Shown here: positions 10,654 through 27,094 of the stretch, piece by piece
Layout of the letters: each line of letters opens with the position of its first letter
How positions within the stretch are numbered: the stretch's first letter is position 1
IMG/VR virus record: IMGVR_UViG_3300017788_000128
Coordinates: 1 to 28,439 of that record
DNA: 28,439 bases
DNA from: a virus
Direction: 5' to 3' (one strand)
Program-made: the position numbers and the translations under genes
Notes under the pieces: model-generated
The model's database searches: none
What the model saw: the letters and a program-made list of their open reading frames with translations, nothing else
What the model was told of the DNA's origin: nothing

Positions 10654-11873
10654 TAACTAATTACAAGACCAGACTTACCATCTTTTACTTCTCCCCATGT
10701 TAAACCAGGAAGAGCAGCAGAAATTGCTGTGTTATTAATCTTAAATGACTTACCAGAAACAAGATTCATATGCTCTGAAGAGGTCCAAGCGTCAGTAGCA
10801 TCTACCCATGTAAAGGTTTTATTGGTTGCTCCTAATAATGTAATACCGCCACCATCAGCACCAGCATCTGTACTGTTTCCATAAGCAAGAACTATGTTCT
10901 TATCTTCTACTTGAAGGTGCTGGGTATCAATTGTGGTAGTAGTTCCATTAACTGTCAAATCTCCAGAAATAGTTACGCTGTTATTAAATGTTGTTGTACC
11001 ACTGGTTGCACCAATTGACAATGTAGTAGCGGCGCTACCAAGATTAATGGTTGTTGCGGTGGTATTAAGAAGATCAAAAGATGTTGATGCAGTGGTCAAA
11101 GATGTTCCTACGGAAGGACTTGTCAATGTCTTATTTGTTAAAGTTTCAGCACCCGCAATAGTTGCAAAGTCAGCATCAGTAAGTGCTGAATTAAACTCTG
11201 CTAAAGTTCCAGAAACTGTATTTGATCCAAGCGCTATTGTTTTATTACTAAGAGTAAGTGTATTGTTTGTGGTAGCAACAACGGTAGTGTCAACATTTAA
11301 AGTTACTGTACCGCTTGTGCCCCCTCCTGTTAAACCTGTGCCCGCTGTAACTCCTTCAATATCTGCTGGTATTAAAATTGTTCCACCAAGAGAAACTGAT
11401 GTACCATTAATTGTAATTGCAGAGTTAGAAAGTTTATCGTTTGCAATAGATCCAGAAAGCATGGCATTTGTGACTGTGCCTGTATCTCCAGTTGTAATAA
11501 TAGTTCCAGTTCTATCTGGAATAGTAATAGTACGATCATCAGTAGGATCTACAGAAATAAGAGTTGTTTGATAAGAGTTAGTTGTAGCACCCTCAAAAAT
11601 TACAGATTCTCTAGTTAAAACATTTTTATTAGCATCTAATTCTGCTACGCCATTAACGGCACCCTTTTCAGTTATTTCAACATAACCTGCAAGGCTTGTA
11701 TTTAGTTCTGACTCTGTAGCAAGATATGTAAGTTCAGACCATATGGTGCTACCGTCGCCAACCTTAAGTTGAGAAAGAGTAGTATTGTAACCAATTTCAC
11801 CTTCATTGAGAATCGGGTCTGCATCATTCCATTCGGAACTAGTGCCCCTACGCATTTGAATTCTAACAGCCAC
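10653..11873 (-). CDS. Tail fibre with Mtd-like N-terminal domain
   Basis: A 406-residue structural protein. Residues 1-50 (IQMRRGTSSEWNDADPILNE, GEIGYNTT, LKVGDGSTIWSEL) match the N-terminal domain of the Bordetella phage major tropism determinant, which attaches a receptor-binding protein to the virion. The rest is Thr/Ser/Gly-rich beta repeat: a PTDDRTITIPDRTGTIITTG module, an ITINGTSVSLGG module and TLSNKT/TLTNKT modules. These modules recur in at least four other genes here. The start codon is GTG with Shine-Dalgarno GGAGG 6 nt upstream; the -10 GGTATAAT is 23 nt upstream of the GTG. It is likely a trimeric fibre or adhesin base. Confidence 0.8.
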   Translation of the reverse strand: MAVRIQMRRGTSSEWNDADPILNEGEIGYNTTLSQLKVGDGSTIWSELTYLATESELNTSLAGYVEITEKGAVNGVAELDANKNVLTRESVIFEGATTNSYQTTLISVDPTDDRTITIPDRTGTIITTGDTGTVTNAMLSGSIANDKLSNSAITINGTSVSLGGTILIPADIEGVTAGTGLTGGGTSGTVTLNVDTTVVATTNNTLTLSNKTIALGSNTVSGTLAEFNSALTDADFATIAGAETLTNKTLTSPSVGTSLTTASTSFDLLNTTATTINLGSAATTLSIGATSGTTTFNNSVTISGDLTVNGTTTTIDTQHLQVEDKNIVLAYGNSTDAGADGGGITLLGATNKTFTWVDATDAWTSSEHMNLVSGKSFKINNTAISAALPGLTWGEVKDGKSGLVIS

Positions 11874-12340: not shown

Positions 12341-14686
12341 TTACGCTTCGATTAGCGTTCTGTGCACCTTTACTGTTGTACCATTTGTTGATGTTACGAG
12401 TAGACGAACATCTGATCCTGAGTAGTCTGCATCAATTGCACCAATCTGTGCATTACTTTGAACATCTGCATACTCAGTGATATAAACATTGTTATTTCCA
12501 TCGACTGTTACAAGGGCCTCTAGAACTTCAATGTCATCTCCATTACGCATTTGAACTACGTACTTGGCAGACTTAAATGTTGCTGCCGCCCATGCGTCTA
12601 CTACAGTTGCGCTAGTTGTTGTAACGCTTGTTGTAGCAGTGCCCATAAGAGCATCTGTAAGTGTTACATATCCAACGCCAATGCTTACGAATGCTGGGCT
12701 AGATGTTGTAGCAATGCTTTGTGGTAAAGATAATGTTACTGCACCAGTTGATGTTGATGCTATAACTTGATCTGCTGTTCCTGCTAGGCTTGTTACGCCT
12801 GCGTTTGTAATTGTAAGAACATTGTTTGTTGAAGCATAAGATGCTGTGATTCCTGTACCGCCAGTTACTGCGTTACCGAATGCATCAATTGATGTTTCAA
12901 TATCAGATGTGAAGGCTAGTGTACCTGTTGCATCTTGAAGTGTAATTGTACGATCTGCTGTTGGATCCGTTACTGTTAATGTTGTTTCATGATCATTTGC
13001 TGTACCCTCAAAAACAATACTTGAATCATCTAACTTAAGACCAGTTACTGTTGGTGTAGTAAGTGTTGGACTTGTTAGAGTTTTGTTTGTAAAAGTCTGT
13101 GCTGTGGTAAGATCTGCTGTAACTCCAGTATTGATGCTGAATGAGTTACCAGTTAGTGTTAATCCGTTTCCAGCAACAAATGTTCCTGCTCCAGAAAATT
13201 GTGAGAAAGTAATTTCTGTTACACCAATAGTTACAGAATTATTTGTACAAACAAAACCTTTGTCTGCATTTGAAGTTCCTGCCTCAACAAATGTAAAGGC
13301 TGATGGAAATTCACTACCTTCATTCATATCTAATGAACGAGTTGGTGCTCCAGAGGCTTGAACTACATAAATACCATTAGCAGTTGCATCTGTTTGATCC
13401 TTAATAAGAATTCTGTCACCAGTTGCAAGAGTTACACCATCTATTACACTTCCATTATCAAAATCAGTGGCAAGTGTTCCATTTTCAGTTGTAGCAACTC
13501 TTACAGATGCTTTAACGTCTAATCCTTGTGCTACAGAATCAACATATTGTTTTGTTGCTGCTTCTAGAGCCTGTGAAGGATCTGCATTTAGAGTTACAGT
13601 TCCTGGAAATACTACTGTATTTGGAAGAGATAGAACAATGTCACCAGTAGTTGAACTTACTGCAATCTGACTTGTTGTACCACTCACGCTAGAAACACCA
13701 GCAGTGATATTAATTGATCCACCAAGAGAAGTTGCAGTTCCATTAATTGTAATGCTTGAATTTGCAAGCATTGCATTTGTAACAGTGCCTGAATCACCTG
13801 TGGTAACTACTGTACCAGTTACATCTGGTAGTGTAATTGTGCGATCTGCAGTAGGATCAGTTACAGTCAAAGTTGTTTCATGATCATTTGCAGTTCCTTC
13901 AAAGACAATGCTTGAATCTGAAAGATATAAGCCAGAAACTTGCGGTGATGTAAGAGTTTTATTTGTAAGTGTCTGTGTTCCAGATGTTGTTGCTACCGTT
14001 GAATCAATTGCTACTGTTACCGCTGAAGATCCATCATAAGATGTTCCTGAAAGGCCAGTACTAATTGTCAACGCATTTGGATTAACTGCTGTAACTGTTG
14101 CAGAACCACCAAGAGAAATTGAAGATCCGTTTACTGTTAGTGAAGAATTTGTTAAAGATCCATTGCCAATATTTGTAATTGTATTTGATGTACCTGAAAT
14201 AGTTTTATTTGTAAGGGTTTCACTACCCGCTAAAGTTGCAAAGTCTGCATCGCTAAGTGCGGTATTAAACTGTGCAATAGTTCCTGAAAGGGTATTGCTT
14301 GAAAGATTTATTGTTTTATTTGTTAGAGTATCTGTTGTTGCCTTACCAACAAGTGTATCTGTAGCATTTGGCAATGTTACTGTTTGATCTTGTGTTGGTT
14401 CTGGTGAAAGAAGTGTTAGTTCATAATCATCTGGTGTATTTCCTTCAAAGATGATTCTATCTGCAAATGTTGGTGTTTCCGATACTGCTGCATCAATTAC
14501 GCCTGTTGTATCATTATATGTAAATGTAATACCTGTTTGTGTACCGCCTGTGAACATCGCTGCAGTAGTATCTTGCAGAAATTCTGTGCTCGCCTCTGTA
14601 AGAACGTTTGAGCCATTAACTGTAGCAGATGATCCTTCTACTACCAGGCCGTTCTTGATGCGAAAGGCTTTGTCGACTGTAGCCAT
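12341..14686 (-). CDS. Long repetitive tail fibre
   Basis: A 781-residue fibre made of repeating beta modules. SSIVFEGTANDHETTLTVTD followed by PTADRTIT occurs twice almost unchanged (about residues 255 and 560). TLTNKT/TFTNKT units occur at least four times, and a third, diverged copy of the first module (IIFEGNTPDDYELTLLSPEP) is near the start. Around residues 380-495 a distinct domain (ATKQYVDSVAQGLDVKASVR, then TLATGDRILIKDQTDATANG) is a phage tail domain often seen in long fibres. The last 80 residues (KYVVQMRNGDD to HRTLIEA) are homologous to the end of the neighbouring 145-residue protein. The start has Shine-Dalgarno AAGGAG. It probably forms a trimeric fibre shaft with an exchangeable tip. 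Confidence 0.85.
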   Translation of the reverse strand: MATVDKAFRIKNGLVVEGSSATVNGSNVLTEASTEFLQDTTAAMFTGGTQTGITFTYNDTTGVIDAAVSETPTFADRIIFEGNTPDDYELTLLSPEPTQDQTVTLPNATDTLVGKATTDTLTNKTINLSSNTLSGTIAQFNTALSDADFATLAGSETLTNKTISGTSNTITNIGNGSLTNSSLTVNGSSISLGGSATVTAVNPNALTISTGLSGTSYDGSSAVTVAIDSTVATTSGTQTLTNKTLTSPQVSGLYLSDSSIVFEGTANDHETTLTVTDPTADRTITLPDVTGTVVTTGDSGTVTNAMLANSSITINGTATSLGGSINITAGVSSVSGTTSQIAVSSTTGDIVLSLPNTVVFPGTVTLNADPSQALEAATKQYVDSVAQGLDVKASVRVATTENGTLATDFDNGSVIDGVTLATGDRILIKDQTDATANGIYVVQASGAPTRSLDMNEGSEFPSAFTFVEAGTSNADKGFVCTNNSVTIGVTEITFSQFSGAGTFVAGNGLTLTGNSFSINTGVTADLTTAQTFTNKTLTSPTLTTPTVTGLKLDDSSIVFEGTANDHETTLTVTDPTADRTITLQDATGTLAFTSDIETSIDAFGNAVTGGTGITASYASTNNVLTITNAGVTSLAGTADQVIASTSTGAVTLSLPQSIATTSSPAFVSIGVGYVTLTDALMGTATTSVTTTSATVVDAWAAATFKSAKYVVQMRNGDDIEVLEALVTVDGNNNVYITEYADVQSNAQIGAIDADYSGSDVRLLVTSTNGTTVKVHRTLIEA

Positions 14687-16294: not shown

Positions 16295-16324
16295 TTGTAC
16301 TTATGAGTAATTTTGTGTTATACT
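16295..16324 (+). promoter_or_regulatory. Promoter of the transglycosylase gene
   Basis: TTGTAC (16295-16300), an 18-bp spacer and TGTTATACT (hexamer 16319-16324) form a -35/extended -10 promoter reading rightwards. The predicted start is about 16331. It is one of few promoters here with a credible -35. Confidence 0.6.
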
Positions 16325-16330
16325 AGGTGT

Positions 16331-16352
16331 ATGCACCGTATGGTGCATTTTT
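16331..16352 (+). promoter_or_regulatory. 5'-terminal hairpin and T-run, attenuator-like
   Basis: ATGCACC-GTAT-GGTGCAT forms a perfect 7-bp hairpin followed by TTTTT. It sits at the predicted +1 of the transglycosylase mRNA and before its ribosome binding site. It could be a 5' stabiliser, an attenuator, or a terminator for read-through from the right-reading side. Confidence 0.5.
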
Positions 16353-16368
16353 ACATTGGAGGTAAAAC

Positions 16369-16926
16369 TTGGTACGTAGTAGATTACTATCAGGGGGAGT
16401 AGCAATAACTTTTGGCTTGACCATGCTTTTGGGTGCCATGCCACAGGCTAATGCTATAAAAACTTTACTAGAACAAGACCAGCCTAATGCTGTTGCCGCC
16501 CCAAAGGCGGTTTTTTTGGTTTCTAAGCCTAGTAAAGATATTACACTTGAAAAATATCAAAACGCAACCAGTCTAACTGACCTGCAACTTGTAGAGTTGT
16601 TAAAAGCCGTCGGATTTTCTGGCAAAGGCCTTAAGATTGCATATGCAGTCGCTAAGGCTGAAAGCAATGGCAGACCTTATGCATTTAATGGAAATATCAA
16701 AACTTTAGATCAAAGTTACGGTGTGTTCCAAATTAATATGCTAAGTATGCTAGGAGAAGATCGCCGTGAGCGATTTGATCTAGCCCATAACGCTGACCTA
16801 TTCAATCCCGTCATCAATGCAAAAATTGCATACCGTATGACTAAGGGTGGAGAGGACTGGAGCGCATGGTCGTCCTATAACAAAGGCGCTATATATAAAT
16901 GGCTAGATAAATTCCCTAATCAATAA
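16369..16926 (+). CDS. Secreted lytic transglycosylase (SLT fold)
   Basis: A 185-residue exported muralytic enzyme. The start is TTG, fixed by Shine-Dalgarno TTGGAGG 6 nt upstream. Residues 1-29 are a signal peptide: basic MVRSR, a hydrophobic core (GGVAITFGLTMLLGAMP) and a cleavage site after AQANA-like residues (A29). The C-terminal domain (about 88-185) is transglycosylase-like: KIAYAVAKAESNG with the likely catalytic Glu98, SYGVFQIN (117-124) and WSAWSSYN (164-171). It is the only plus-strand gene within the tail region, with its own promoter and terminator. It could be a signal-peptide endolysin or a virion/host-envelope remodelling enzyme. I see no cell-wall-binding repeat. Confidence 0.85.
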   Translation: MVRSRLLSGGVAITFGLTMLLGAMPQANAIKTLLEQDQPNAVAAPKAVFLVSKPSKDITLEKYQNATSLTDLQLVELLKAVGFSGKGLKIAYAVAKAESNGRPYAFNGNIKTLDQSYGVFQINMLSMLGEDRRERFDLAHNADLFNPVINAKIAYRMTKGGEDWSAWSSYNKGAIYKWLDKFPNQ

Positions 16927-16944
16927 ATTTAGGACATAAAAATA

Positions 16945-16978
16945 CCCCCAGGCTTCAAGGTCTGGGGGATATTTTTTT
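16945..16978. terminator. Bidirectional intrinsic terminator
   Basis: A 9-bp GC-rich stem (CCCCCAGGC and GTCTGGGGG, one G-U pair) with a 6-nt loop lies between convergent stop codons. A seven-T run follows on the plus strand and a T-rich tract on the minus strand, so it should end both the transglycosylase transcript and the opposing tail operon. Confidence 0.9.
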
Positions 16979-16984
16979 ATTTAA

Positions 16985-17263
16985 TTAAATTTCAATCCAA
17001 GAATTTGTAGATTCATCCCAGATGTAGTTTCCTTCTTCTGGAGCAGCAACTGGCGCTTCCCAACGATTGTTTGCGTTTAGCACCCAACTTGGGTATGGCT
17101 TACGTGGAATAAATACTTCACCAACATATGTGCCACCTGCTTCTGCAGATTCTGCTGTAAATTCTACACATGTCTTGCCTGTTACTTCCTCAGCGATTGC
17201 TTTGGAATCTGCAACGATTGTGTTAAGTACGTTCTCTTCGTCTAAAACTGCAAATTTAGCCAT
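16985..17263 (-). CDS. Small cassette-terminal tail protein, copy 1
   Basis: A 92-residue protein, MAKFAVLDEENVLNTIVADS at the start, then VFIPRKPYPSWVLNANNRW and a closing WDESTNSWIEI. The PKPYPSWVLN..W.APV....Y.WDE.T..W pattern is one I recall from many aquatic phage tail clusters, where such genes follow fibre or adhesin genes. It is nearly identical to the product of 20270-20566, and the first 50 coding positions are a perfect DNA repeat (17205-17254 and 20508-20557). The start lies one base after the stop of the glycine-rich protein, with AGAGG upstream. It may be a fibre chaperone, tip or decoration protein. Confidence 0.8.
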   Translation of the reverse strand: MAKFAVLDEENVLNTIVADSKAIAEEVTGKTCVEFTAESAEAGGTYVGEVFIPRKPYPSWVLNANNRWEAPVAAPEEGNYIWDESTNSWIEI

Positions 17264-17264
17264 A

Positions 17265-18056
17265 TTATAATCCTCTTAACACATAGACAAATCCGCTGCT
17301 ACCAGCACCACCAGCGGCACCACCAGGTGTTTGACTTGCACCATTTCCGCCTGTAGAACCTGGAGTTGACATAAAAAGATATGGAGCATTGGATGATGGG
17401 CTTCCAGATGCCCCTGTTGTTGCTGGAATCGTATTTCCAATAGGAGGTGTTGCGCCACCACCGCCGTTTGCAGATAATAAATTTCCAAAATTTGTTACTC
17501 CGCCAGCATTTCCAGCAGTGGCAGCAGCACCACCATTACCACCAGTCCCTATTGTAATAGGTGTTGAAGTATTTGTAAAAAAATTGCTGCCTGCAAATCC
17601 ACCAGTGCCGCCGCTTGCGCCATTTCTATATACTGCACTACCCGAACCGCCACCAGCACCGCCAACACAAACTACATAAAGTTGTCCAGTTGTATTATAA
17701 GTACTAGTTGTTGTTATAGTATCTAAAGTTCCACTTGCATTTGAAGAAATTGATTGCCCTGTAAGTGTAATGGAAACTAGAACATTTGAACCACTGCTAA
17801 CATAATATCCAATCTTACTAATTGCTTGTGCAAGGTTAACCGAAACTGTTCCACTTGCGGTTGTACCAGTTGTCACAATTTCTCCACTACTATTATAAAA
17901 ATCTACAACTGCAACAATGCCACTAGAACATGTAATACTATAAATCCCTGGGTCAAAAGGTTGAATTGATTGATAATAAGATGTTGTTGCTGTAGCAGTA
18001 AATGTTTTTGCAATTGTACTTGCAGCCTCATCAGCAATTAAACTACTAATAGCCAT
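17265..18056 (-). CDS. Glycine-rich tail adhesin-like protein, cassette 1
   Basis: 263 residues. The first 130 are beta-rich (SYYQSIQPFDPGIYSITCSS, ending GTLDTITTTSTYNTTGQLYV). The second half is built of Gly-rich loops (GGAGGGSGSAVYRNGASGGT, GTGGNGGAAATAGNAGG, GGNGASQTPGGAAGGAGSSG) and ends VYVLRGL. This resembles glycine-rich distal tail adhesins such as T-even gp38, where polyglycine-type helices carry variable receptor-contact loops. Related proteins are encoded at 20568-21551 and 22647-23387. The ATG overlaps the previous stop (TAATG) behind GGAG, so translation is coupled. Confidence 0.8.
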   Translation of the reverse strand: MAISSLIADEAASTIAKTFTATATTSYYQSIQPFDPGIYSITCSSGIVAVVDFYNSSGEIVTTGTTASGTVSVNLAQAISKIGYYVSSGSNVLVSITLTGQSISSNASGTLDTITTTSTYNTTGQLYVVCVGGAGGGSGSAVYRNGASGGTGGFAGSNFFTNTSTPITIGTGGNGGAAATAGNAGGVTNFGNLLSANGGGGATPPIGNTIPATTGASGSPSSNAPYLFMSTPGSTGGNGASQTPGGAAGGAGSSGFVYVLRGL

Positions 18057-18382
18057 TATGCAATCTCCGATCCAAATACCTGAAATGTAAGATTTGTGTC
18101 TGATCCTAAAACATATAATTGATCTGTTGCATCCATTGTAATACCCAGCGTTAATGCAATAACATTATTTGCAGTAATTGGTGTATCATATGCAATATAG
18201 TGTTTATCTGCTAGTCCTTCATTATTTGGACGAAGAATAATCCTGAATGTATTTTCTGCTGCCTCTCGATTTGCAATTACAATTGAAGAAACAATTGTTT
18301 GTGTAGCAGATGGGCAGGTATAAATTGATACCGCCGAAGTTGTGCTTGCCAACTGTCCCAAGACTTTATAAGTTGTTGCCAT
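18056..18382 (-). CDS. Small beta-rich tail protein, cassette 1
   Basis: 108 residues, MATTYKVLGQLASTTSAVSI then YTCPSATQTIVSSIVIANRE, a central AYDTPITANNVIALTLGITM and a final FQVFGSEIA. The product of 21551-21865 follows the same plan (MATTSKTLF..., YTVPTTSTTTVVTNIAVANT, HISGVEIV), so the two are paralogues that each precede a glycine-rich adhesin gene. The fold is probably a beta sandwich that joins the adhesin to a fibre. Shine-Dalgarno AAGGAG lies 8 nt before the ATG. The stop overlaps the next start, and the DNA of this junction (GGAGATTG then ATAATG) is conserved in the second cassette. Confidence 0.75.
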   Translation of the reverse strand: MATTYKVLGQLASTTSAVSIYTCPSATQTIVSSIVIANREAAENTFRIILRPNNEGLADKHYIAYDTPITANNVIALTLGITMDATDQLYVLGSDTNLTFQVFGSEIA

Positions 18383-18415
18383 TAGATTTTCTCCTTATTT
18401 GAATATTGTACCATA

Positions 18416-19162
18416 TTATGCACCCATCAACATAAATACTTGAGGAACTGGATCTGTGGATATTGTTACGCTACCGCCCAAAGATACTGCTGATCCATTT
18501 ACGGTAATAGAACTATTTTCCAGCATAGTATTTGTTACAGTTGCTGTATCTCCTGTTGTAACAAGAGTACCAGTAATATTTGGAATTGTGATTGTTCTAT
18601 CTGCCGTCGGATTTGTGACGGTAAGAGTAGTCTCATGATCGTCAGCACTAGATCCTTCAAAAATAATACTTGAATCATTTAATGTAAGGCCAGTTACTAC
18701 AGGACTTGTTAATGTCTTATTTGACATTGTTAAGGTGTTATTTGTTGTTGCAACTACCGCCGTGTCAACGGAAAGTGTAATTGTACCAGCGGTACCACCT
18801 CCGCTTAAACCTGTGCCAGCGGTAACTCCAGAAATATCTCCATCATTAGCAGTCCAAGCAGAGCCACTATAATATTGAATTTGATTTAATGGATTTCCAC
18901 CAGCATCTTGTCTTACGAAACAAATTGTTCCATGAACAGGTGATGTTATTGCTGCATCTCTTGCAGCAGGATTAAGAAAATTATTAAAACCATCTAGGAT
19001 ATTTACAGTAGCATCAAAATTGACGGTATTTAAAAATGTTTGTGTATTAGTCCATTCATATGCTGAAGCAGTATCAATCTTTGCTCCAAAGGCATACCAC
19101 GTATCTCCAACCGAATCATACATGTAAGCGGGTTTACCGCTGTTGTCAAAGGATGCTGGCAT
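18416..19162 (-). CDS. Tail fibre with TLTNKT-type modules, cassette 1
   Basis: 248 residues. The N terminus MPASFDNSGKPAYMYDSVGD followed by TWYAFG matches the fibre of cassette 2 (DPKPGYVYDADVDTWFPLLG) and is probably the attachment segment. There follow GTICFVRQDAGGNPLNQIQY (fibre motif), GVTAGTGLSGGGTAGTITLS, TMSNKTLTSP, and one copy of the SSIIFEGSSADDHETTLTVT module with INGSAV-like strands. It ends PQVFMLMGA, like MTLMGAY in cassette 2. The start has no Shine-Dalgarno but sits 7 nt behind TGCTATAAT, with a second TGCTATAAT further upstream. Confidence 0.8.
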   Translation of the reverse strand: MPASFDNSGKPAYMYDSVGDTWYAFGAKIDTASAYEWTNTQTFLNTVNFDATVNILDGFNNFLNPAARDAAITSPVHGTICFVRQDAGGNPLNQIQYYSGSAWTANDGDISGVTAGTGLSGGGTAGTITLSVDTAVVATTNNTLTMSNKTLTSPVVTGLTLNDSSIIFEGSSADDHETTLTVTNPTADRTITIPNITGTLVTTGDTATVTNTMLENSSITVNGSAVSLGGSVTISTDPVPQVFMLMGA

Positions 19163-19169
19163 AGTTTAA

Positions 19170-19192
19170 ATTATAGCAGGGATTTCTGCTAT
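19170..19192 (-). promoter_or_regulatory. Extended -10 with dyad, fibre cassette 1
   Basis: TGCTATAAT (19170-19178) ends 7 nt before the ATG at 19162. Its TGCTAT is the arm of ATAGCAG-6 nt-CTGCTAT (19173-19192). No Shine-Dalgarno. Confidence 0.55.
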
Positions 19193-19206
19193 CTCCTCTA
19201 CCTGAA

Positions 19207-19215
19207 ATTATAGCA
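19207..19215 (-). promoter_or_regulatory. Second upstream extended -10
   Basis: A second TGCTATAAT lies 37 bp upstream of the first, just after the stop codon at 19219. It may be a tandem promoter for the same fibre gene. Confidence 0.4.
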
Positions 19216-19218
19216 TAT

Positions 19219-19926
19219 TTAACGATAGTCTTTAGGCTGTCTAAACTGCCTTTTATATGAGTCAAAAAATACAGTCCTTAGTTTGTTTGTTACCTTTGCC
19301 TGTTGCTGGAATTCTTCATTGCTACCGATTTCCATTTGGAACTCATCTCGTTTAAATGGAATAACTTGCATTATTGGAGTACCCGCTGGAATTAGACCAT
19401 CCATTTTTGGATCTCGCAAAACAAAGGGGAAGTTAACAGGAGCATTATAAGTATCAGTATCTACAACTCCAGGAAGAACAATAATAGGTGTTTCTCTATG
19501 AAGAGGAGATATAAATAATGATGAATATCCAGGAGGAGTTGTTATAGCCCAAGCATTTGTCCATTTTGGATATGATACTTCATGACCCTTGCCATCTGGA
19601 TGTTCTGGAAGTTGTTGTTTTGGATGAAATCCTAAAGCACCAAAATTAGCCCATTCATAATATGGTTGTAATTTTCCATTTTCATCTGGTTTTTGAGATA
19701 CAAATAAATCTGTATGAGTTGAAATTATATACCCGCCAGTTATGGCATCAAATATAGGCATACAGCGTTTTGCTGTTGCTGTAGTAGATGCATTTCCATC
19801 AGGTCTTTTTTCTCCACCAATATAAGACTCTAAATTCTTATACCATTCAGGAATTATTTTTGAAGCGGGTACTGGACGATATTCTTCTGGTACCCCAATA
19901 GTATCTGTAAATTTAATTATTTGCAT
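19219..19926 (-). CDS. Conserved phage protein of unknown function
   Basis: 235 residues from the ATG at 19926, which follows AAAGGAAG; a start further upstream would lie inside the preceding gene. Features include EEYRPVPASKIIPEWYKNLE, KRCMPIFDAITGGYIISTHT, NAWAITTPPGYSSLFISPLH and GTPIMQVIPFKRDEF. The pattern looks like a compact globular enzyme-like or binding protein rather than a fibre, and I have an impression of homologues in aquatic phages, but I cannot name a family or catalytic residues. It overlaps the zinc-ribbon gene by 14 nt, so the two are coupled. The pair is inserted between adhesin cassettes 1 and 2. Confidence 0.75.
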   Translation of the reverse strand: MQIIKFTDTIGVPEEYRPVPASKIIPEWYKNLESYIGGEKRPDGNASTTATAKRCMPIFDAITGGYIISTHTDLFVSQKPDENGKLQPYYEWANFGALGFHPKQQLPEHPDGKGHEVSYPKWTNAWAITTPPGYSSLFISPLHRETPIIVLPGVVDTDTYNAPVNFPFVLRDPKMDGLIPAGTPIMQVIPFKRDEFQMEIGSNEEFQQQAKVTNKLRTVFFDSYKRQFRQPKDYR

Positions 19927-20191
19927 TATCTTCCTTTTGTAATTCTGTAAATAAATTAGCAATATCTACTACCAATCTATCCTCAATTTTTTCATTTTCT
20001 TGTTCTGCAAATTTAGCAATCTTATTCAATATGTTTGGAAGTGTTATTAATTCAGCAAATTTATTATTGATACCGCACATTCTACAAAAATTCATACCCA
20101 TTTTTTGCACGGTATATAATTTAAAACTTTCCTTACAACTAAAACATTCAGCAGTTGTTATATCAGGAATGTATGTTAGATCTTTTTCCAT
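19913..20191 (-). CDS. Zinc-ribbon protein
   Basis: 92 residues. Two CxxC pairs, Cys16/Cys19 (CFSC) and Cys36/Cys39 (CRMC), should bind one zinc. The rest is helical and acidic (LNKIAKFAEQENEKIEDRLV), suggesting a small regulatory or adaptor protein. Shine-Dalgarno GGGGGT precedes the ATG; TGCTATACT lies 18 nt before it, directly after a terminator hairpin, so the gene starts a new transcript. Its 3' end overlaps the following gene by 14 nt. No DNA-binding function can be claimed from sequence alone. Confidence 0.75.
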   Translation of the reverse strand: MEKDLTYIPDITTAECFSCKESFKLYTVQKMGMNFCRMCGINNKFAELITLPNILNKIAKFAEQENEKIEDRLVVDIANLFTELQKEDNANN

Positions 20192-20209
20192 AATTACCCC
20201 CAGATATTT

Positions 20210-20218
20210 AGTATAGCA
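20210..20218 (-). promoter_or_regulatory. Extended -10 of the zinc-ribbon operon
   Basis: TGCTATACT lies 18 nt before the ATG at 20191 and 7 nt after the hairpin at 20226-20249. Confidence 0.5.
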
Positions 20219-20225
20219 TAACTAA

Positions 20226-20249
20226 AGCCCCTATGCAAATATAGGGGCT
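20226..20249 (-). terminator. Terminator hairpin after cassette 2
   Basis: AGCCCCTAT-6 nt-ATAGGGGCT, a perfect 9-bp stem, lies about 20 nt after the stop codon at 20270. A short T-containing tract (TTTAGTT) overlaps the stem end on the minus strand, so termination may be partial. Confidence 0.75.
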
Positions 20250-20269
20250 AGAAGTTATTTAATTATTGT

Positions 20270-20566
20270 TTATGATTCAATCCAAGAAGTTGTTGATTCA
20301 TCCCAGGTATAATATTTTGGATTTTCTTCATCAAATGCTGGGTAAGCAACTGGTGCCTCCCATGAGTTATTTGCATTGAGCACCCAACTTGGATAAGGTT
20401 TACGTGGAATAAATACTCCACCAACATAGGTGCCACCTGCTTCTGCACGATCTGTTTCGCTAAATTCTACACATGTCTTGCCTGTGACTTCTTCAGCAAT
20501 TGCTTTAGAATCTGCAACGATTGTGTTAAGTACGTTCTCTTCGTCTAAAACTGCAAAGTTAGCCAT
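20270..20566 (-). CDS. Small cassette-terminal tail protein, copy 2
   Basis: 98 residues, a near-duplicate of the product of 16985-17263: the first 35 residues differ at one position (MANFAV against MAKFAV), then a few-residue difference (SETDRAEAGGTYVGG against TAESAEAGGTYVGE), an identical RKPYPSWVLNANN, and a longer acidic insert (PAFDEENPKYYTWDE) before the closing WDESTTSWIES. DNA identity is high over the whole gene. It follows the glycine-rich gene by one base with GAGAGG upstream, the same junction as in cassette 1. This indicates recent duplication of the seam, with divergence of the adhesin between. Confidence 0.8.
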   Translation of the reverse strand: MANFAVLDEENVLNTIVADSKAIAEEVTGKTCVEFSETDRAEAGGTYVGGVFIPRKPYPSWVLNANNSWEAPVAYPAFDEENPKYYTWDESTTSWIES

Positions 20567-20567
20567 A

Positions 20568-21551
20568 TTAGAATCCTCTCAATACGTAAACGACGCCTGG
20601 GGAGCCACTTTTGCCTATATGTGTAGCCTGTACATTTGTAGCGCCACCGCCGCCGCCACCTGCACCATATCCCGAGCCAGCATTTGCTACAATACTGTGT
20701 TTTCCACCATTTCCACCAGTTCCTATACCAGAACCTTTGCCAGATCCAATAGTTCCATTACCTGCACCGCCACCTCCACCGCCACTGCTTGCACCAGTTA
20801 CTGAATTGTGTTTAGAAATTGTTTCAGTTGCAGTATCTGGAGCAGTGCCAGTACTTCCTCGGCCTCCATCACCGCCATTAGTACCATTTCCACCAGTGAA
20901 AGTTCCACCAGTTCCACCATCAGTGGCAGCAGCACCACCATTACCACCATTAGCAGTTAAGATATTTCCAAAAGTTGTTGACCCGCCAGAGTTTCCACTT
21001 ACTTGAGTATTACCAGCATTTCCGCCATTTCCTATTGTTATGCTTGTTGAGGTGTTTGTGTATGTGATTATGCCAGTAATTGCTCCACCACCGCCGCCGC
21101 CGCCTGCTCCGCTACTAGAAGCAAAAGTACCTCCACCTCCACCTGCTCCAATAGCCACTGCATAAAGTAGTCCAGTTGTGTTATAGGTTGATGTTGTTGT
21201 GATAGTATCTAAAGTTCCAGATAGAGTAGACCCCGAAGTGTTTGAAGAAGTATAAGTAATTGTAACTGCTGTACTTGTCGAACCACTTGTATCTGTAAGA
21301 TAAATTTGTGTTGCATCTGATGCAATAGAAAATGAAACTGTTCCACTTACAGTAGTGTTATTTGATAAAGTAGATGTTGCATCTGCAAAAACAACATTGA
21401 CCTGTGATGTAGCAGGAGATGTTGTTACAGTATAGCCACCTGCTGCAAATGTACCATTAATTTCATATGTTTTATATGCTTCAGTTATATTAAATGCTTG
21501 ACCGTCTGGACCAGATGCGGTGGAAGGCGCTGGAAATACTGAAATACTCAT
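20568..21551 (-). CDS. Glycine-rich tail adhesin-like protein, cassette 2
   Basis: 327 residues. The N-terminal half is beta-rich with YEINGTFAAGGYTVTTSPA and ends SGTLDTITTTSTYNTTGLLY, a segment nearly identical to cassette 1 (STYNTTGQLYVV). From about residue 130 it is dominated by glycine: GAGGGGGTFASSSGAGGGGG, GGNGTNGGDGGRGSTG, GAGNGTIGSGKGSGIGTGG, ending VVYVLRGF. The conserved ends and variable Gly-rich middle fit a distal adhesin whose loops choose the receptor. The start ATG overlaps the upstream stop as TAATG with GGAG nearby. Confidence 0.8.
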   Translation of the reverse strand: MSISVFPAPSTASGPDGQAFNITEAYKTYEINGTFAAGGYTVTTSPATSQVNVVFADATSTLSNNTTVSGTVSFSIASDATQIYLTDTSGSTSTAVTITYTSSNTSGSTLSGTLDTITTTSTYNTTGLLYAVAIGAGGGGGTFASSSGAGGGGGGGAITGIITYTNTSTSITIGNGGNAGNTQVSGNSGGSTTFGNILTANGGNGGAAATDGGTGGTFTGGNGTNGGDGGRGSTGTAPDTATETISKHNSVTGASSGGGGGGAGNGTIGSGKGSGIGTGGNGGKHSIVANAGSGYGAGGGGGGATNVQATHIGKSGSPGVVYVLRGF

Positions 21552-21865
21552 TATACAATCTCCACTCCGCTAATATGAAAATTAATTGTTGTTGCAGATG
21601 CTGATCCAGTAATTGTTTTTGGAGTAGCATTTGCATCTAAAACTTGCTTCATGTCAATAACAGCAGTTGAATTTTCAGCAAGTGGTACTGCGGATAATAC
21701 TGCTACCCCGTCAATATTAATAGTGAATGTTCCTGTTGCTGCTGCAGTATTTGCAACTGCAATATTTGTAACTACTGTTGTAGTAGATGTGGTTGGAACT
21801 GTATAAAGAGTAGTGTTGCTTGTTGCTGCAGCACCACGAAATAGTGTTTTACTTGTTGTAGCCAT
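21551..21865 (-). CDS. Small beta-rich tail protein, cassette 2
   Basis: 104 residues: MATTSKTLFRGAAATSNTTL, YTVPTTSTTTVVTNIAVANT, GTFTINIDGVAVLSAVPLAE, NSTAVIDMKQVL and a closing INFHISGVEIV. It is paralogous to the product of 18056-18382 and holds the same position before a glycine-rich adhesin gene. Shine-Dalgarno GGAGGTAG precedes the ATG, and CCTATAAT lies 20 nt before it. The stop is fused to the next start (TAATG). Likely a connector between fibre and adhesin. Confidence 0.75.
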   Translation of the reverse strand: MATTSKTLFRGAAATSNTTLYTVPTTSTTTVVTNIAVANTAAATGTFTINIDGVAVLSAVPLAENSTAVIDMKQVLDANATPKTITGSASATTINFHISGVEIV

Positions 21866-21885
21866 TAGTTACTACCTCCAGTAGT

Positions 21886-21893
21886 ATTATAGG
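21886..21893 (-). promoter_or_regulatory. -10 element of cassette 2
   Basis: CCTATAAT lies 20 nt upstream of the ATG at 21865, with GGAGG between them. No TG extension. Confidence 0.35.
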
Positions 21894-21898
21894 ACATT

Positions 21899-22348
21899 TT
21901 AATATGCCCCCATTAGTGTCATGATTGTTAAATCGTCTACCTGGGCGGTAGTAGCCAAAGTAACTGTTCCAGTTGGAATTGTAACAGTACCAGAATTAGA
22001 AATAGAAGAAATAATAGGTGTTGTTAAAGTTTTATTTGTTAGGGTTTGGGCGGTATTTAAATCTACCGTCACTGTTGTATCAATAGCAATTGAAGGAATT
22101 GGACCTGTAGCATCTGTAACAGAAATACCATTTCCTGATGTTACCGCCGTAATATCGCCAGTCTCACCGCTATTAACCCAGTTTGTACCATTGTACATAA
22201 GTACTTGGTTAGTTGCGGGGGTAGTTAAAACAACATCTGTTAAATCTTCTAAAGACTGTGTTGCTAAACCAAGAAGGGGAAACCAAGTATCTACATCTGC
22301 GTCATAGACATACCCTGGTTTTGGGTCGGTAGTGTTAATAGTTGCCAT
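21899..22348 (-). CDS. Tail fibre with TLTNKT-type modules, cassette 2
   Basis: 149 residues. The N terminus TTDPKPGYVYDADVDTWFPL is shared in plan with the cassette 1 fibre. It continues ATNQVLMYNGTNWVNSGETG (a common phage-fibre phrase), DITAVTSGNGISVTDATGPI, which is almost repeated in the product of 23384-24694, then AQTLTNKTLTTP and a closing TIMTLMGAY. It is a shortened version of the cassette 1 fibre lacking the DHETTLTV module. The ATG follows TGTTATAAT by 6 nt with no Shine-Dalgarno. Confidence 0.8.
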   Translation of the reverse strand: MATINTTDPKPGYVYDADVDTWFPLLGLATQSLEDLTDVVLTTPATNQVLMYNGTNWVNSGETGDITAVTSGNGISVTDATGPIPSIAIDTTVTVDLNTAQTLTNKTLTTPIISSISNSGTVTIPTGTVTLATTAQVDDLTIMTLMGAY

Positions 22349-22354
22349 TATTAT

Positions 22355-22379
22355 ATTATAACAGAATTACTCTGTTATA
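22355..22379 (-). promoter_or_regulatory. Extended -10 within a perfect dyad
   Basis: TGTTATAAT (22355-22363) ends 6 nt before the ATG at 22348. It overlaps TATAACAGA-5 nt-TCTGTTATA (22357-22379), 9-bp perfect arms, which also spans the stop codon of the upstream gene. The dyad may be an operator or a 3'-end hairpin. Confidence 0.6.
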
Positions 22380-22650
22380 CCTCGCTTTCTGGTGTTACTA
22401 TTTCTACTGGTTTTGTTTTAAATTCATCAAGTTCTGGATCATATATCATTCCAGTACCAGCATATCTACCTCTAAACTCTTCTTCAAGTGATGTTTGTTT
22501 CCACTCTGTATCTTCTCCAAATAAATTTTTTAAAAATGATATACCTAAAGGTTCTGATTCTGGAAAAGTTTTATTTTCAAGAACGTTATTGTCTACAACA
22601 TATATGTCTTGACACGTGTTATTACTAATTTTAACAAAATAAGATATCAT
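22375..22650 (-). CDS. Small cassette-terminal tail protein, cassette 3
   Basis: 91 residues. MISYFVKISNNTCQDIYVVD, PLGISFLKNLFGEDTEWKQT, FRGRYAGTGMIYDPELDEF and a closing KPVEIVTPESEV. The W.QT...GRYAG.G..YD...D.F order is that of the longer form of the family represented by 16985-17263 and 20270-20566, though it lacks the PKPYPSW part. It holds the equivalent place after a glycine-rich adhesin gene and overlaps it by 4 nt (ATGA). Homology to the other two copies is inferred from pattern and position, not from clear identity. Confidence 0.7.
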   Translation of the reverse strand: MISYFVKISNNTCQDIYVVDNNVLENKTFPESEPLGISFLKNLFGEDTEWKQTSLEEEFRGRYAGTGMIYDPELDEFKTKPVEIVTPESEV

Positions 22651-23387
22651 CCTATCACCACGATAACTCTTCCTGCGCCACCTGAACCACCGATGTTACC
22701 GCCCCTTCCAACATTGCTAGAGTTTCCACTTCCGTTAACGCCTGCTCCACCGCCAGCATAACCTACTGCGCTTCCAGTTATATTTAAAGTTATTTCAGGA
22801 CCACCCGAGTGACCATTCGGAGTTCCTCCAGCACCGCCACCACCTGCTCCACTACTAGTATTTCCTCCAGCAAATCCTTGGTCAGGAGTTCCGCTTCCTG
22901 CTGGTCCACCACCACTAAAGTTAAAAGCACCGCCACCACTTCCTCCAGATTTTGGTCCTAATCCACTTATAACACCACTACCATCTCTTCCGCTACCGCC
23001 ACCACCACCTACAGCATAATACTGCCAAATATATGACGATGTTCCTTGATTTCCTGGACCACCGTTATTACTACTACTTATATTAGTTCCACCAGCACCA
23101 ACTGCTACTGTTAAATTTTCTGCTGGTAAAAATGCTGATGCTTCATATAAGACTCCTCCAGCACCACCTCCAGATGTTAAGTTTCCGACTCCACCACCAC
23201 CGCCGCCTGCAATAACTGCTATTTCAGCATAGCCAGCAGTACCCACAGTAATTGATCCACTACCGTTAAACTCATAAATTGTTTTTCCTGCACGAGCATT
23301 ATTATTTGTTGTTGGTGATCCAGAAGTTGTATTAACTGTTGCTTTTCCAATACCGCCAAGAGAAACAGGGCTAAATGTAGGACTCAT
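22647..23387 (-). CDS. Glycine-rich tail adhesin-like protein, cassette 3
   Basis: 246 residues. A short N-terminal segment (MSPTFSPVSLGGIGKATVNT) leads to YEFNGSGSITVGTAGYAEIA and then the Gly-rich body: VIAGGGGGGVGNLTSGGGAG, GAGGTNISSSNNGGPGNQG, GGSGGGAFNFSGGGPAGSG, GGAGVNGSGNSSNVGRGGN, closing RVIVVIG. The body begins with the V(I/V)AGGGGGG pattern typical of phage glycine-rich tip proteins. It lacks the long beta N terminus of the copies in cassettes 1 and 2. The start overlaps the preceding stop (ATGA) and the stop overlaps the next start. Confidence 0.8.
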   Translation of the reverse strand: MSPTFSPVSLGGIGKATVNTTSGSPTTNNNARAGKTIYEFNGSGSITVGTAGYAEIAVIAGGGGGGVGNLTSGGGAGGVLYEASAFLPAENLTVAVGAGGTNISSSNNGGPGNQGTSSYIWQYYAVGGGGGSGRDGSGVISGLGPKSGGSGGGAFNFSGGGPAGSGTPDQGFAGGNTSSGAGGGGAGGTPNGHSGGPEITLNITGSAVGYAGGGAGVNGSGNSSNVGRGGNIGGSGGAGRVIVVIG

Positions 23388-24694
23388 GCGTATTTAACCG
23401 CCCCTGCTGCTAACATCTTAAAAGTAGCATCTGCTGTTTTTACAATTGTAAATGAATAAACATCAAGACTTGATGCGTTTCCTGCGCTAGGCGCAGTTCC
23501 GCCAGACCAGTTTACTGTAACTCCGCTTGTTGTACCATCTACCTGATAAATATTTGGATAATATGGTGTTGCTCCATTTGTATTAAGCCATAAAACAGTG
23601 ACTGAATCTCCTACAGCCAAAAGTGTATTCATAGATGTTGTTGAACTACCTCTAAAATTAAGTGTATGGTTTCCTGTAGCATCTGACGTATAATACCAAA
23701 CTCCAGATGTAAGAACATCGACATTAATTGTTCCTGTTGCTGCTGAAGCAACAATATTCCAACGCTCTTCTGGTCCAACAAAAACTGGAGAACTTACAGT
23801 TGCTGATGTAATGGTTGGGGCAGTTCCAAAAACCAATAACCCAGAACCAGTTTCATCAGTTACTGCTGCTGCAAGATTTGCAGAAGACGGGGTAGCCAAA
23901 AATGTAGCAACACCAGTACCTAATCCAGATACTGCAGAAGTAATTGCAATATCAGTAATTGTATTTGATGTACCGCTAATTGTTTTATTTGATAAAGTTA
24001 ATGTGTTATTTGTTGTAGCAACTACCGCCGTGTCTACGGCAACAGAAGGAACTGGACCAGTTGAACTTGTAACCGAAATACCAGTGCCAGATGTTACGGC
24101 TGTAAGATCGCCAGTGTCATTTGCAATCCACTCAAGACCACTTGTTGTAGATGAGTTAACTGCCAAAATATATCCATTAGTTGATGCAGCATTTAAAACT
24201 GATGCAGTATCATTTGCAGTTCCAATAATAATATCTCCCTTGGCAGAAATAACTGCTTGTGGAATAAATGGATTTGATGTAATTGATGTTGGATCTTTAT
24301 CTACCCAAATTACACCAGTTGAAAGATCTGATGTTGGAACAGAGTTTGTAAAAACTGAAGTTGCAGAAACTGGTTGTCCACCAATTGTTCCATCTTGATC
24401 TACCCAGATATATCCATTTGGAATTCCTGAAGGAGTAAAGTCTCCTGGAACTGGAACGGTAGTAGCAACATCTCCACCAGATGATGGACGATTTTCTAGA
24501 TCAACGATGTCTTGCTGAATATCATAAATTGTTTTTGCCATAGATGGCGTAACAAGTGAGCCTGGTGAGGTATTTGCTGGGCTATAAGCATATGATCCAT
24601 AGTGATATACACGAAGAGCAGCCTGAATATCTGCTGCATCTGCATAGCCTGGGATTGCTGTTGGAATTAACGCTCCAATTGATTCTGCTGCCAT
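23384..24694 (-). CDS. Tail fibre with TLSNKT-type modules, cassette 3
   Basis: 436 residues. The N-terminal region (PTAIPGYADAADIQAALRVY, MAKTIYDIQQDIVDLENRPS) contains a short coiled coil, usual for a trimeric fibre. Then come two copies of a PNGYIWVDQDG / TGVIWVDKDP phrase, GDIIIGTANDTASVLNAAST, LTAVTSGTGISVTSSTGPVP and TLTLSNKTISGTSNTIT. The C-terminal 130 residues (EERWNIVASAATGTINVDVL to FKMLAAGAVKYA) match a compact beta domain often found at the end of phage fibres. Shine-Dalgarno GGAGAGG is present; GGTATAAT lies 17 nt before the ATG. Confidence 0.8.
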   Translation of the reverse strand: MAAESIGALIPTAIPGYADAADIQAALRVYHYGSYAYSPANTSPGSLVTPSMAKTIYDIQQDIVDLENRPSSGGDVATTVPVPGDFTPSGIPNGYIWVDQDGTIGGQPVSATSVFTNSVPTSDLSTGVIWVDKDPTSITSNPFIPQAVISAKGDIIIGTANDTASVLNAASTNGYILAVNSSTTSGLEWIANDTGDLTAVTSGTGISVTSSTGPVPSVAVDTAVVATTNNTLTLSNKTISGTSNTITDIAITSAVSGLGTGVATFLATPSSANLAAAVTDETGSGLLVFGTAPTITSATVSSPVFVGPEERWNIVASAATGTINVDVLTSGVWYYTSDATGNHTLNFRGSSTTSMNTLLAVGDSVTVLWLNTNGATPYYPNIYQVDGTTSGVTVNWSGGTAPSAGNASSLDVYSFTIVKTADATFKMLAAGAVKYA

Positions 24695-24711
24695 TAGGTC
24701 ACCTCTCCAAA

Positions 24712-24719
24712 ATTATACC
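24712..24719 (-). promoter_or_regulatory. -10 element of cassette 3
   Basis: GGTATAAT lies 17 nt before the ATG at 24694, with GGAGAGG in the leader. Confidence 0.4.
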
Positions 24720-24723
24720 ATAG

Positions 24724-25323
24724 TTATGGCACTATAGTTATCTGTAAATGGGTTGTAACTTGCACTCCGCTAGTATATGATGCAGTGTCTCCAAGGGCTA
24801 CCCAAGAAGAAGATGCATCATACTCTACAGCGTGTAAGTTGATTGTTAAATTGCTACCCGCCAAAGCAGGAATTTCCATGGAAGAAGCAATAGGGTTTTC
24901 ATATGCAATGCTATATTTAACATTGAAATTTTCTGCAGTTAACGGGGTACCAGAAATAGTAACAATATCTCCTACAGGTATTACTATCTGAGCATCTCCA
25001 TCTTCAAAGGTAGTTACAGCATTCTCTGAATAAATAGTAGGATTAATGTCTAATACTTCTACCCATGTATTTCCACCTGGTTCTGCTACATATTGAAAAA
25101 TATATCCATAGGTAGCACTTGGAGAAACGTTTACATAAAGATCATTAAGAAGCAGGGTTTGTCCTGCAAATATACCGCTACTAGTCGCAGAATTTGGATC
25201 ACCAGATCCTACAAAAAATTTATTTCCACGAGTACCCTGGGCTCCAATGTCAAGTTGAAGTTCAATTACACTTGGGGGTCCAAGGACAGTGACATCATCG
25301 TTAGATAATAATACATCTACCAT
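24724..25323 (-). CDS. Tail structural protein with collagen-like start
   Basis: 199 residues. After a short N terminus (VDVLLSNDDVTVLGPPSVIE) it has LQLDIGAQGTRGNKFFVGSG, the GxxGxxGN segment that opens many phage collagen-like or tail-knob domains, then GQTLLLNDLYVNVSPSATYG and YIFQYVAEPGGNTWVEVL, a strand pattern usual in this family. The C-terminal half is beta-rich with no catalytic motif. It overlaps the stop of the BppU-like gene as TAATG, so it is coupled. Probably a tail fibre or a connector carried by the BppU-like proteins. Confidence 0.75.
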   Translation of the reverse strand: MVDVLLSNDDVTVLGPPSVIELQLDIGAQGTRGNKFFVGSGDPNSATSSGIFAGQTLLLNDLYVNVSPSATYGYIFQYVAEPGGNTWVEVLDINPTIYSENAVTTFEDGDAQIVIPVGDIVTISGTPLTAENFNVKYSIAYENPIASSMEIPALAGSNLTINLHAVEYDASSSWVALGDTASYTSGVQVTTHLQITIVP

Positions 25324-25670
25324 TATGCAGCGCCTGTAACCTGCTCGGTAACTGTGATTGTGCCAGTAAGCAAGGTAAATACAAGTGATGGTAGATTTTG
25401 AATCTGAACGTCATAAACATATGTTCCAGCATCAAGAGTTCCACCAACACCTGGCAAAATTTTGCAAGTAACAGTATCGTTTACTGTATTAACTACAGCC
25501 TCTGCCTCAACAGAATAAGTTGGATTATCTCCACGACTTGTTGCAATAAAAAAATCAGCCTCATAGCCAGTTAAATCAAATGCTCCACCATTAGAAGTCT
25601 TTGGGCGAATGACAAATTCATTGGTATCACCTTTATAATAATTAAAATTATATGTTCCTGGAAACGCCAT
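25323..25670 (-). CDS. BppU-like protein, second copy
   Basis: 115 residues: AFPGTYNFNYYKGDTNEFVI, GGAFDLTGYEADFFIATSRG, DAGTYVYDVQIQNLP and FTLLTGTITVTEQVTG. The (K/R)GD(T)..F, FDLTG/DISDW and GTI(T/S)(V/M) landmarks agree with the products of 15356-15733 and 25768-26178. The fold is probably an immunoglobulin-like attachment domain. Its ATG is fused to the stop of a 33-residue gene (TAATG), with AAGGTAG upstream. Confidence 0.75.
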   Translation of the reverse strand: MAFPGTYNFNYYKGDTNEFVIRPKTSNGGAFDLTGYEADFFIATSRGDNPTYSVEAEAVVNTVNDTVTCKILPGVGGTLDAGTYVYDVQIQNLPSLVFTLLTGTITVTEQVTGAA

Positions 25671-27088: not shown

Positions 27089-27094
27089 GTTTTA

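Follow-up and report, generated by a model that had tools for sequence, protein, structure and literature searches.

Right-hand edges of replaced adhesin blocks cluster at small putative chaperone genes in a tandem phage array

Organization of the adhesin array

The window, meaning the whole stretch of DNA that was analyzed, comprises positions 1 to 28,439 of the IMG/VR virus record IMGVR_UViG_3300017788_000128, a 28.4-kb phage record with a GC content of 38%. It contains three tandem tail-fibre cassettes on the minus strand, enclosed by a gene for a 199-amino-acid (aa) protein and a lysozyme gene. Each cassette ends in a glycine-rich adhesin gene followed by a small gene, and the cassettes are transcribed in the order C, A, B. 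Cassette C consists of a fibre gene, the glycine-rich gene and the small gene. In cassette A, the fibre gene is followed by a 104-aa gene, the glycine-rich gene, the small gene, a zinc-ribbon-like gene and a DUF6065-like gene. Cassette B contains a fibre gene, a 108-aa gene, the glycine-rich gene and the small gene. Here, we describe how adhesin blocks of this array are replaced between phages and where the small genes lie in relation to the edges of these blocks. Related loci are designated by L numbers. The features are as follows, in the order of transcription of the array, with open reading frame abbreviated as ORF, hidden Markov model as HMM and predicted local distance difference test score as pLDDT.

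24724..25323, minus strand: 199-aa gene, left-hand border of the array (comparison with relatives)
23384..24694, minus strand: fibre gene, position C, 436 aa (high identity to the relative L011 stops at about 23978, inside the gene)
22647..23387, minus strand: glycine-rich adhesin C, 246 aa (Pfam Gly_rich_2, 32.5 bits)
22375..22650, minus strand: small gene C, 91 aa, diverged member of the small-gene family (phrog_7759; family HMM, E 3.6e-9)
21899..22348, minus strand: fibre gene, position A, 149 aa (95% aa identity to L011)
21551..21865, minus strand: 104-aa gene before adhesin A (ORF; L011 homology stops at 21547, just past the gene)
20568..21551, minus strand: glycine-rich adhesin A, 327 aa (Pfam Gly_rich_2, 26.7 bits; model resembles Bxb1 tail tip and Pam3 gp24)
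20270..20566, minus strand: small gene A, 98 aa, putative adhesin chaperone (ORF; AlphaFold2 model, pLDDT 95; N-terminal domain resembles Pam3 gp25, Z 4.9, 51 residues)
20508..20557, no strand: 50-bp perfect repeat, copy 2, in small gene A (sequence identity)
19913..20191, minus strand: small zinc-ribbon-like gene, 92 aa, downstream of small gene A (weak Pfam matches; in L014 it sits after the last small gene)
19219..19935, minus strand: DUF6065-like gene, 238 aa, between cassettes A and B (phrog_7084; Pfam match below cut-off)
18416..19162, minus strand: fibre gene, position B, 248 aa (98% aa identity to L011)
18056..18382, minus strand: 108-aa gene before adhesin B, left edge of a replaced block (L011 homology stops at 18352, about 30 bp inside the gene)
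17265..18056, minus strand: glycine-rich adhesin B, 263 aa (Pfam Gly_rich_2, 30 bits, cut-off 24.3)
16985..17263, minus strand: small gene B, 92 aa, putative adhesin chaperone (ORF; phrog_7759 and phrog_14370, both of unknown function; family HMM)
17205..17254, no strand: 50-bp perfect repeat, copy 1, in small gene B (sequence identity)
16369..16926, plus strand: lysozyme-like gene (SLT_3), right-hand border of the array (Pfam domain; relatives' loci)

Small genes A and B

A sequence-only reading of the window had described small genes A and B as near-identical copies flanked by diverged adhesins. This description holds for the proteins, which are identical at 79 of 91 aligned residues (87%), for the 50-bp stretch, which matches perfectly, and for adhesins A and B, which are identical at 110 of 252 residues (44%), with a DNA identity of 54% and a synonymous divergence (dS) of 0.91. 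High DNA identity was also claimed for the rest of the copies and is found only in part: the aligned codons are 87.2% identical overall, but unevenly so, with 95% identity in the first 35 codons, 82% in the remaining aligned codons and gaps of 1 and 5 codons. The comparison of dS between small genes and flanking genes that had been suggested gave 0.41 for the small genes (NG86; non-synonymous divergence, dN, 0.08), 0.91 for the adhesins, and 0.81 and 1.61 for the next two gene pairs. The starts of the two copies are 3303 bp apart, in line with the estimate of about 3.3 kb, and the interval holds, besides the adhesin gene, the zinc-ribbon-like, DUF6065-like, fibre and 108-aa genes. The 50-bp pattern, allowing up to 3 mismatches, occurs at two sites only in the window, compared to 0 expected from 100 shuffles, and an identical run of this length is no more than mildly unusual given the overall A/B divergence (codon-shuffle p = 0.027). 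Because both genes are on the minus strand, they form direct repeats.

Adhesin blocks are replaced between related phages

Three adhesin blocks have been replaced between the window phage and L011. This relative, the closest one identified via the DUF6065-like gene, shares aligned blocks with an average DNA identity of 90%. Directly beside the cassettes the two sequences are 87-93% identical, whereas the adhesin blocks display little or no similarity. Positions 16985-18352 do not match L011 at all; within block 20270-21547 a patch of 85 bp at 74% remains, located in small gene A, and within block 22390-23978 a patch of 355 bp at 65%, located in fibre C. On the right-hand side homology stops at 16984, 20267 and about 22390, at or within about 15 bp of the three small-gene ends.

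The comparison with L011 also bears on a possible assembly artefact, in which reads were collapsed or switched at the 50-bp repeat. Exact repeats can generally cause contig mis-joins. However, the order C, A, zinc-ribbon-like, DUF6065-like, B, lysozyme is identical in the L011 contig, with matching flanks, copies A and B differ over most of their length, and the usual short reads are longer than 50 bp. Hence, we consider an artefact very improbable.

Other relatives differ in the make-up of the array. In L014, a block like that of window position A (104-aa-like gene, adhesin, small gene, zinc-ribbon-like gene) occupies the last position, beside the lysozyme gene. The number of fibre-like genes between the lysozyme and 199-aa genes varies from 1 to 3 across relatives, and the small gene was detected in 15 of 53 lysozyme loci.

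Several observations concern the DUF6065-like gene and its surroundings. L120 carries such a gene (41%) between cassettes C and A and not between A and B; thus, the gene shifts its place in the array. In L057 (5395-7546) a glycine-rich gene separates the DUF6065-like from the small gene; it is missing in L044 (5214-6316), where the corresponding small gene has no adhesin directly upstream. Homologues of the DUF6065-like protein (19219-19935), 31-36% identical among the 25 listed of 50 records, come mostly from haloarchaeal viruses, and in halovirus HF1 (L113) the homologue lies near a glycine-rich adhesin, the small gene of that adhesin and a ribonucleotide reductase. Similar neighbourhoods of the gene occur in archaeal viruses and, on the other side, in what are probably bacterial ones. 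One scan of the genome contig collection, meant to find a host through prophages, returned no confirmed relative of the protein.

Right-hand edges cluster at the small gene

To locate the edges of replaced blocks, the ends of blastn alignments were taken wherever a gap spanned an adhesin, using 19 loci and 78 ordered locus pairs. The small-gene zone was defined as 60 bp before to 30 bp after the small gene. Right-hand edges cluster at the small gene: 106 of 149 fell within the zone, 40 further right (11 of them 31-400 bp and 29 over 400 bp beyond the small gene) and 3 before it. Read in one direction only, again with unlimited range, 56 of 74 edges were in the zone. When the range was limited to the stretch between the midpoint of the adhesin and a point 400 bp beyond the small gene, the zone contained 106 of 118 edges, compared to a uniform expectation of 31%; the corresponding numbers were 56 of 63 for one direction and 29 of 34 when each small gene was counted once. 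The 118-edge count is based on 19 loci, one near-duplicate having been left out of the 20 loci chosen earlier, for which the limited range gave 127 of 140. Edges concentrated at four places, with 39 at the small-gene end, 28 at 120-210 bp before this end, around a Pro-Trp motif, 19 where the gene starts and 18 located 30-100 bp ahead of its end; most edges lie in the 3' part of the small gene, at its end or at its very start. In the 20-locus count, 92 of 140 left-hand edges were located in the first half of the adhesin gene.

The 50-bp stretch was considered as a shared nucleotide exchange site and rejected. A 26-mer taken from it together with adjacent bases had 0 matches in the viral contig collection, indicating that the stretch is not a widely shared exchange site.

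The missing match of this 26-mer also argues against a programmed switch, in which site-specific inversion or a diversity-generating retroelement would vary the adhesins. Reversible segments that switch pairs of tail fibre and chaperone are described for some phages in the available text of PMC10579305, and the window encodes a fibre-like protein (10653-11873) with an N-terminal Mtd_N (major tropism determinant) domain. However, the small-gene copies are direct repeats, inverted repeats in 16300-25400 reach at most 37 bp at 70%, and a Pfam scan of 35 proteins of the window, whose record is possibly a fragment, revealed no recombinase, invertase or reverse-transcriptase family. A programmed switch is therefore scarcely credible.

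The small-gene family and its putative chaperone role

An HMM of the small-gene family identified 91 members in 52 of 98 loci, and relatives occur in phages of cyanobacteria, Pelagibacter, Methylophilales and roseobacters (19 records). Of the 89 members with at least 300 bp upstream, 75 are preceded by an adjacent glycine-rich ORF (at least 20% Gly) of at least 120 aa, a count that includes near-identical contigs; as background, 109 of 923 forward ORFs of at least 150 aa reach at least 20% Gly. ORF starts were assigned mechanically and some N termini are over-long, e.g. L026 8855. In the window, small genes A, B and C each lie directly downstream of a glycine-rich adhesin (adhesin B, 19% Gly), and all three adhesins score above the family's own cut-off for PF21722 (Gly_rich_2).

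Neither small protein A nor B matched a Pfam family at E 0.1; both matched only PHROGs of unknown function. The AlphaFold2 model of small protein A (pLDDT 95, with 93 of 98 residues at pLDDT 90 or above) displays a sandwich-like domain at the N terminus and, after it, a Trp-rich tail. The best match of the model in the PDB is to residues 3-56 of chain a of 7ypx, a complex of the Pam3 fibre; the fit is weak (Z 4.9, 2.4 Å over 51 residues, Foldseek E 0.42). The length of this chain, 162 residues, fits the chaperone gp25 as described in the available text of PMC9608196. Among the three adhesins, adhesin A was modelled, with low confidence over most of residues 213-254. The model resembles the Bxb1 tail tip (Z 17.7) and Pam3 gp24, chain A of the same 7ypx entry (Z 16.6, 181 residues); the adhesin profile had no sequence match in the PDB at E 0.001. 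The best sequence match of the small family in the PDB (E 0.0014) consisted of short, weak stretches of an unrelated protein and was judged to be due to chance.

Two neighbouring genes thus match the two partners of one complex, which is the main argument for a chaperone role. Based on these models, each small gene probably encodes an assembly chaperone for the glycine-rich adhesin just upstream. Moreover, similarity of the adhesin C-terminus tracks the chaperone more closely in the N part (partial r 0.39) than in the C part (0.21) in 42 cassettes, i.e. those of the 91 family members that have an adhesin upstream and are divisible at the Pro-Trp motif, with identical pairs removed. Small genes of different N type have related C parts, as seen for L027 and window copy A. 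This suggests that the small gene is more than a seam, with an N-terminal part that tends to accompany the adhesin.

Probable mosaic structure of copy A

The uneven similarity of copies A and B was compared with that of other small-gene pairs. Between A and B, dS is 0.20 in the first 35 codons and 0.6 in the remainder, whereas between A and L014 the pattern is reversed (0.66 in the 5' part and 0.32 in the 3' part). A and B have 30 of 34 synonymous codons in common in the 5' part, the highest value of 21 pairs, and among the 16 pairs for which a value is defined their 5' dS is the lowest, the next being 0.52 (in the other 5 of the 21 pairs, dS is undefined in this part). Their 3' dS is unremarkable among the pairs. 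The 35-codon boundary was picked after the data had been seen; a 3SEQ-like test, which is independent of the boundary, gave p = 0.007 for copy A as a mosaic of B (5') and L014 (3'), p = 0.035 for copy B and p = 0.52 for L014. In a BLAST comparison, the 3' part of A was 86.5% identical to L015, whose small gene equals that of L014 at the protein level, 78.9% to L027 and 72.6% to B; the latter two values count gaps, which in the case of B amount to 15 bp. A mosaic origin of copy A is supported statistically, and the pattern fits an event between positions A and B, either gene conversion or the duplication of a cassette followed by replacement.

The similarity might, alternatively, stem from plain duplication of an older cassette, with the small gene kept by purifying selection, the adhesins diverging under selection, and no seam. 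The low dN of the small gene (0.08) would agree with this, as would the finding that small genes are conserved more than adhesins between phages too (A compared to L014, dS 0.42 versus 1.19). However, dS is uneven along the gene and reversed against L014, and the 5' part is not generally better conserved, since in 17 of 21 pairs identical synonymous codons make up a smaller share of it than of the 3' part. In addition, the window and L011 differ by replacement and not by gradual divergence. We regard plain duplication as unlikely.

A second alternative is independent uptake, in which positions A and B each received, from the phage pool, a cassette with the same common chaperone type, with no recent exchange between the copies. 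In a survey of chaperone N types in 32 chosen loci, this type was widespread: judged by the first 50 residues, it accounts for 15 of 62 small genes, of which 7 are at position A and 8 at position B. For the complete gene, dS is practically the same between A and B (0.41) as between A and L014 (0.42); hence, the overall likeness of A and B alone is no proof of recent exchange. On the other hand, their first 35 codons are closer than those of any other pair with a value, and A/B is the most alike of 55 within-locus small-gene pairs, a ranking that includes near-identical contigs. Scans of the pool, which may omit records very near the window, revealed no closer N domain. We consider independent uptake doubtful, although it deserves to be taken seriously.

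Proposed exchange of adhesin cassettes

The replacement of cassettes, the clustering of edges and the pairing of adhesin and small gene are direct observations. The explanation that we favour, and think reasonably probable, is that adhesin cassettes, with all or part of the chaperone gene, are exchanged between phages and between positions, with edges at the chaperone gene. Small genes A and B are the last genes of the adhesin part in two of the three tandem cassettes; in the putative chaperones that they encode, the N-terminal sandwich domain would hold the adhesin, and the Trp-rich C-terminal part is the common portion. On the right side, homologous recombination, which we infer as the pathway, would often resolve on or at the small gene, because small genes keep alignable stretches and adhesins do not; on the left side, it would resolve within the conserved beginning of the adhesin or in the gene before it. 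Adhesins and all or part of the chaperone would thereby be swapped between phages and positions inside a frame reaching from the 199-aa gene to the lysozyme gene. In favour of such movement, some chaperone N types occur at more than one array position. A recent exchange between A and B inside one genome, by gene conversion or cassette duplication, may have made these small genes nearly identical over their 5' thirds.

Several findings weigh against this explanation. The contrast in divergence between seam and adhesin is not by itself proof of exchange, since small genes exceed adhesins in conservation between phages as well. In 38 of the 53 lysozyme loci, some of which have glycine-rich genes (L117-L119), the examined stretch yielded no small gene. 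The locus pairs are not independent, and 85 of the 118 edges (79 in the zone) come from one group of related phages; in the remaining groups, the zone holds 13 of 16, 12 of 14 and 2 of 3 edges. The 29 of 149 edges more than 400 bp past the small gene lie well outside the zone, and only 2 of 149 fall at nucleotides 10-59 of the small gene, where the 50-bp stretch is located. The mosaic tests draw on few sites: corrected for three tests p is 0.021, and the A-B contrast alone gives a Fisher p of 0.10. Ungapped, the 3' identity of A to B is about 82%, close to that of L027 (about 81%), which has a different N type. Regarding the chaperone role, the Z of 4.9 between small protein A and gp25 is under the trust level of the tool and covers the N-terminal half only, the model lacks the C-terminal helical trimerisation domain, with no helix after residue 28, and a sequence search of the PDB with the small family returned nothing at E < 0.001.

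Unequal crossing over between copies A and B, which the sequence-only reading had proposed as a way to delete or exchange the cassette between them, is mechanically possible and would remove 3303 bp with the zinc-ribbon-like, DUF6065-like, fibre B, 108-aa and adhesin B genes. Parts of this proposal are borne out: the seam is less diverged than the adhesin, copy A shows a mosaic pattern, alternative cassettes exist between otherwise similar phages (L011), their edges cluster at the small gene, and the number of fibre genes varies. The specific event is not, as no assembly joining copies A and B was found among the contigs of the 53 lysozyme loci, which also counts against the favoured explanation, and the 50-bp site is nearly devoid of edges. 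The locus listing spans the lysozyme to the 199-aa gene in 24 of the 53 loci, and the DUF6065-like gene is present on the examined strand in just 5 of these 24; therefore, its absence alone is no mark of an A-by-B deletion.

As a tentative extension, to which we give somewhat less than even chances, the phage lineage may keep an adhesin-chaperone array in a fixed frame, in which the chaperone gene serves as an integral adaptor for recombination. The C-terminal part of this gene would be alignable across cassettes and its N-terminal part would follow the adhesin, so that exchanges within a genome or between co-infecting phages would tend to leave each adhesin with a matching chaperone. The array would stay capable of recombination through recent exchange of the chaperone's 5' part among positions. 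The region could serve the window phage as a natural toolkit to alter the set of bacteria that it grips, with a possible effect on host range.

Other features of the window

The window also carries genes for a portal protein, a prohead protease, a B12-dependent ribonucleotide reductase and a lysozyme-like protein. Streptomyces phages are top among the matches listed for the portal protein, at no more than 47% identity, which makes an actinobacterial host plausible. Fibre genes 12341-14686, 18416-19162, 23384-24694 and 10653-11873 have repeated segments in common (repeat families D1, D4, D6 and D7), possibly an additional recombination substrate. Near the record edge, the plus strand encodes a sulfotransferase-like protein (27071-27901) and a DUF6171 protein (26849-27058).

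Comparison with known systems

The exchange of modules for host recognition is already known, and so are glycine-rich adhesins and fibre chaperones. Aquatic phages have near-identical cores with variable or interchangeable host-recognition genes, described as metaviromic islands and flexible modules (PMC3909814, PMC7468147, PMC10202952). These islands were located by read recruitment, and the available text of the three papers does not mention a chaperone gene as a recurrent edge. In the literature searched, as far as its text was available, we found no description of a tandem adhesin-chaperone array with the chaperone gene as recurrent right-hand edge, and no mention of phrog_7759, phrog_14370, phrog_7084, DUF6065 or PF19541. 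In the Alteromonas phage A5/V22 module, a tail fibre and its cognate chaperone are shared by distant phages; neither glycine-rich adhesins nor an array are mentioned for this module in the available text (PMC10579305).

In haloarchaeal viruses of the genus Hafunavirus, host-range mutations are reported from a hypervariable region, where they map to a glycine-rich adhesin and to the small gene that follows (available text of PMC8651126 and PMC7230728). The order of glycine-rich adhesin and small adjacent gene is as in the window cassettes, but the stretch of HF1 examined has one such pair and the window three. HF1_485, the small gene after the halovirus adhesin, was considered as a member of the small-gene family and rejected, as the HMM gave no support and there was no sequence relation. 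The gp38-type adhesins of T-even phages and Salmonella phage S16 likewise have glycine-rich motifs and determine host range, according to the available text of PMC9608196, PMC8651126 and PMC7230728. The window adhesins differ in each having their own downstream small gene, in a tandem array.

The closest parallel in structure is the myocyanophage Pam3, in which gp24 is a glycine-rich fibre tip and gp25 a small two-part chaperone; the variable N-terminal sandwich of gp25 binds the fibre and its C-terminal part is more conserved (available text of PMC9608196). The models of window small protein A and adhesin A both find the gp24/gp25 complex in the PDB. In contrast to gp25, described with C-terminal helices, the small protein has a C-terminal part that is short, Trp-rich and helix-free in the model. 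The window genome has three cassettes, and exchange edges at the chaperone gene are not described for Pam3 in that text. The favoured explanation amounts to a gene-level proposal of how host-recognition islands of uncultured phages could be swapped without breaking the fit of adhesin and folding partner, with the partner gene lying at the exchange edge and being partly carried along with the adhesin, and it suggests a possible role for proteins whose only matches are PHROGs of unknown function.

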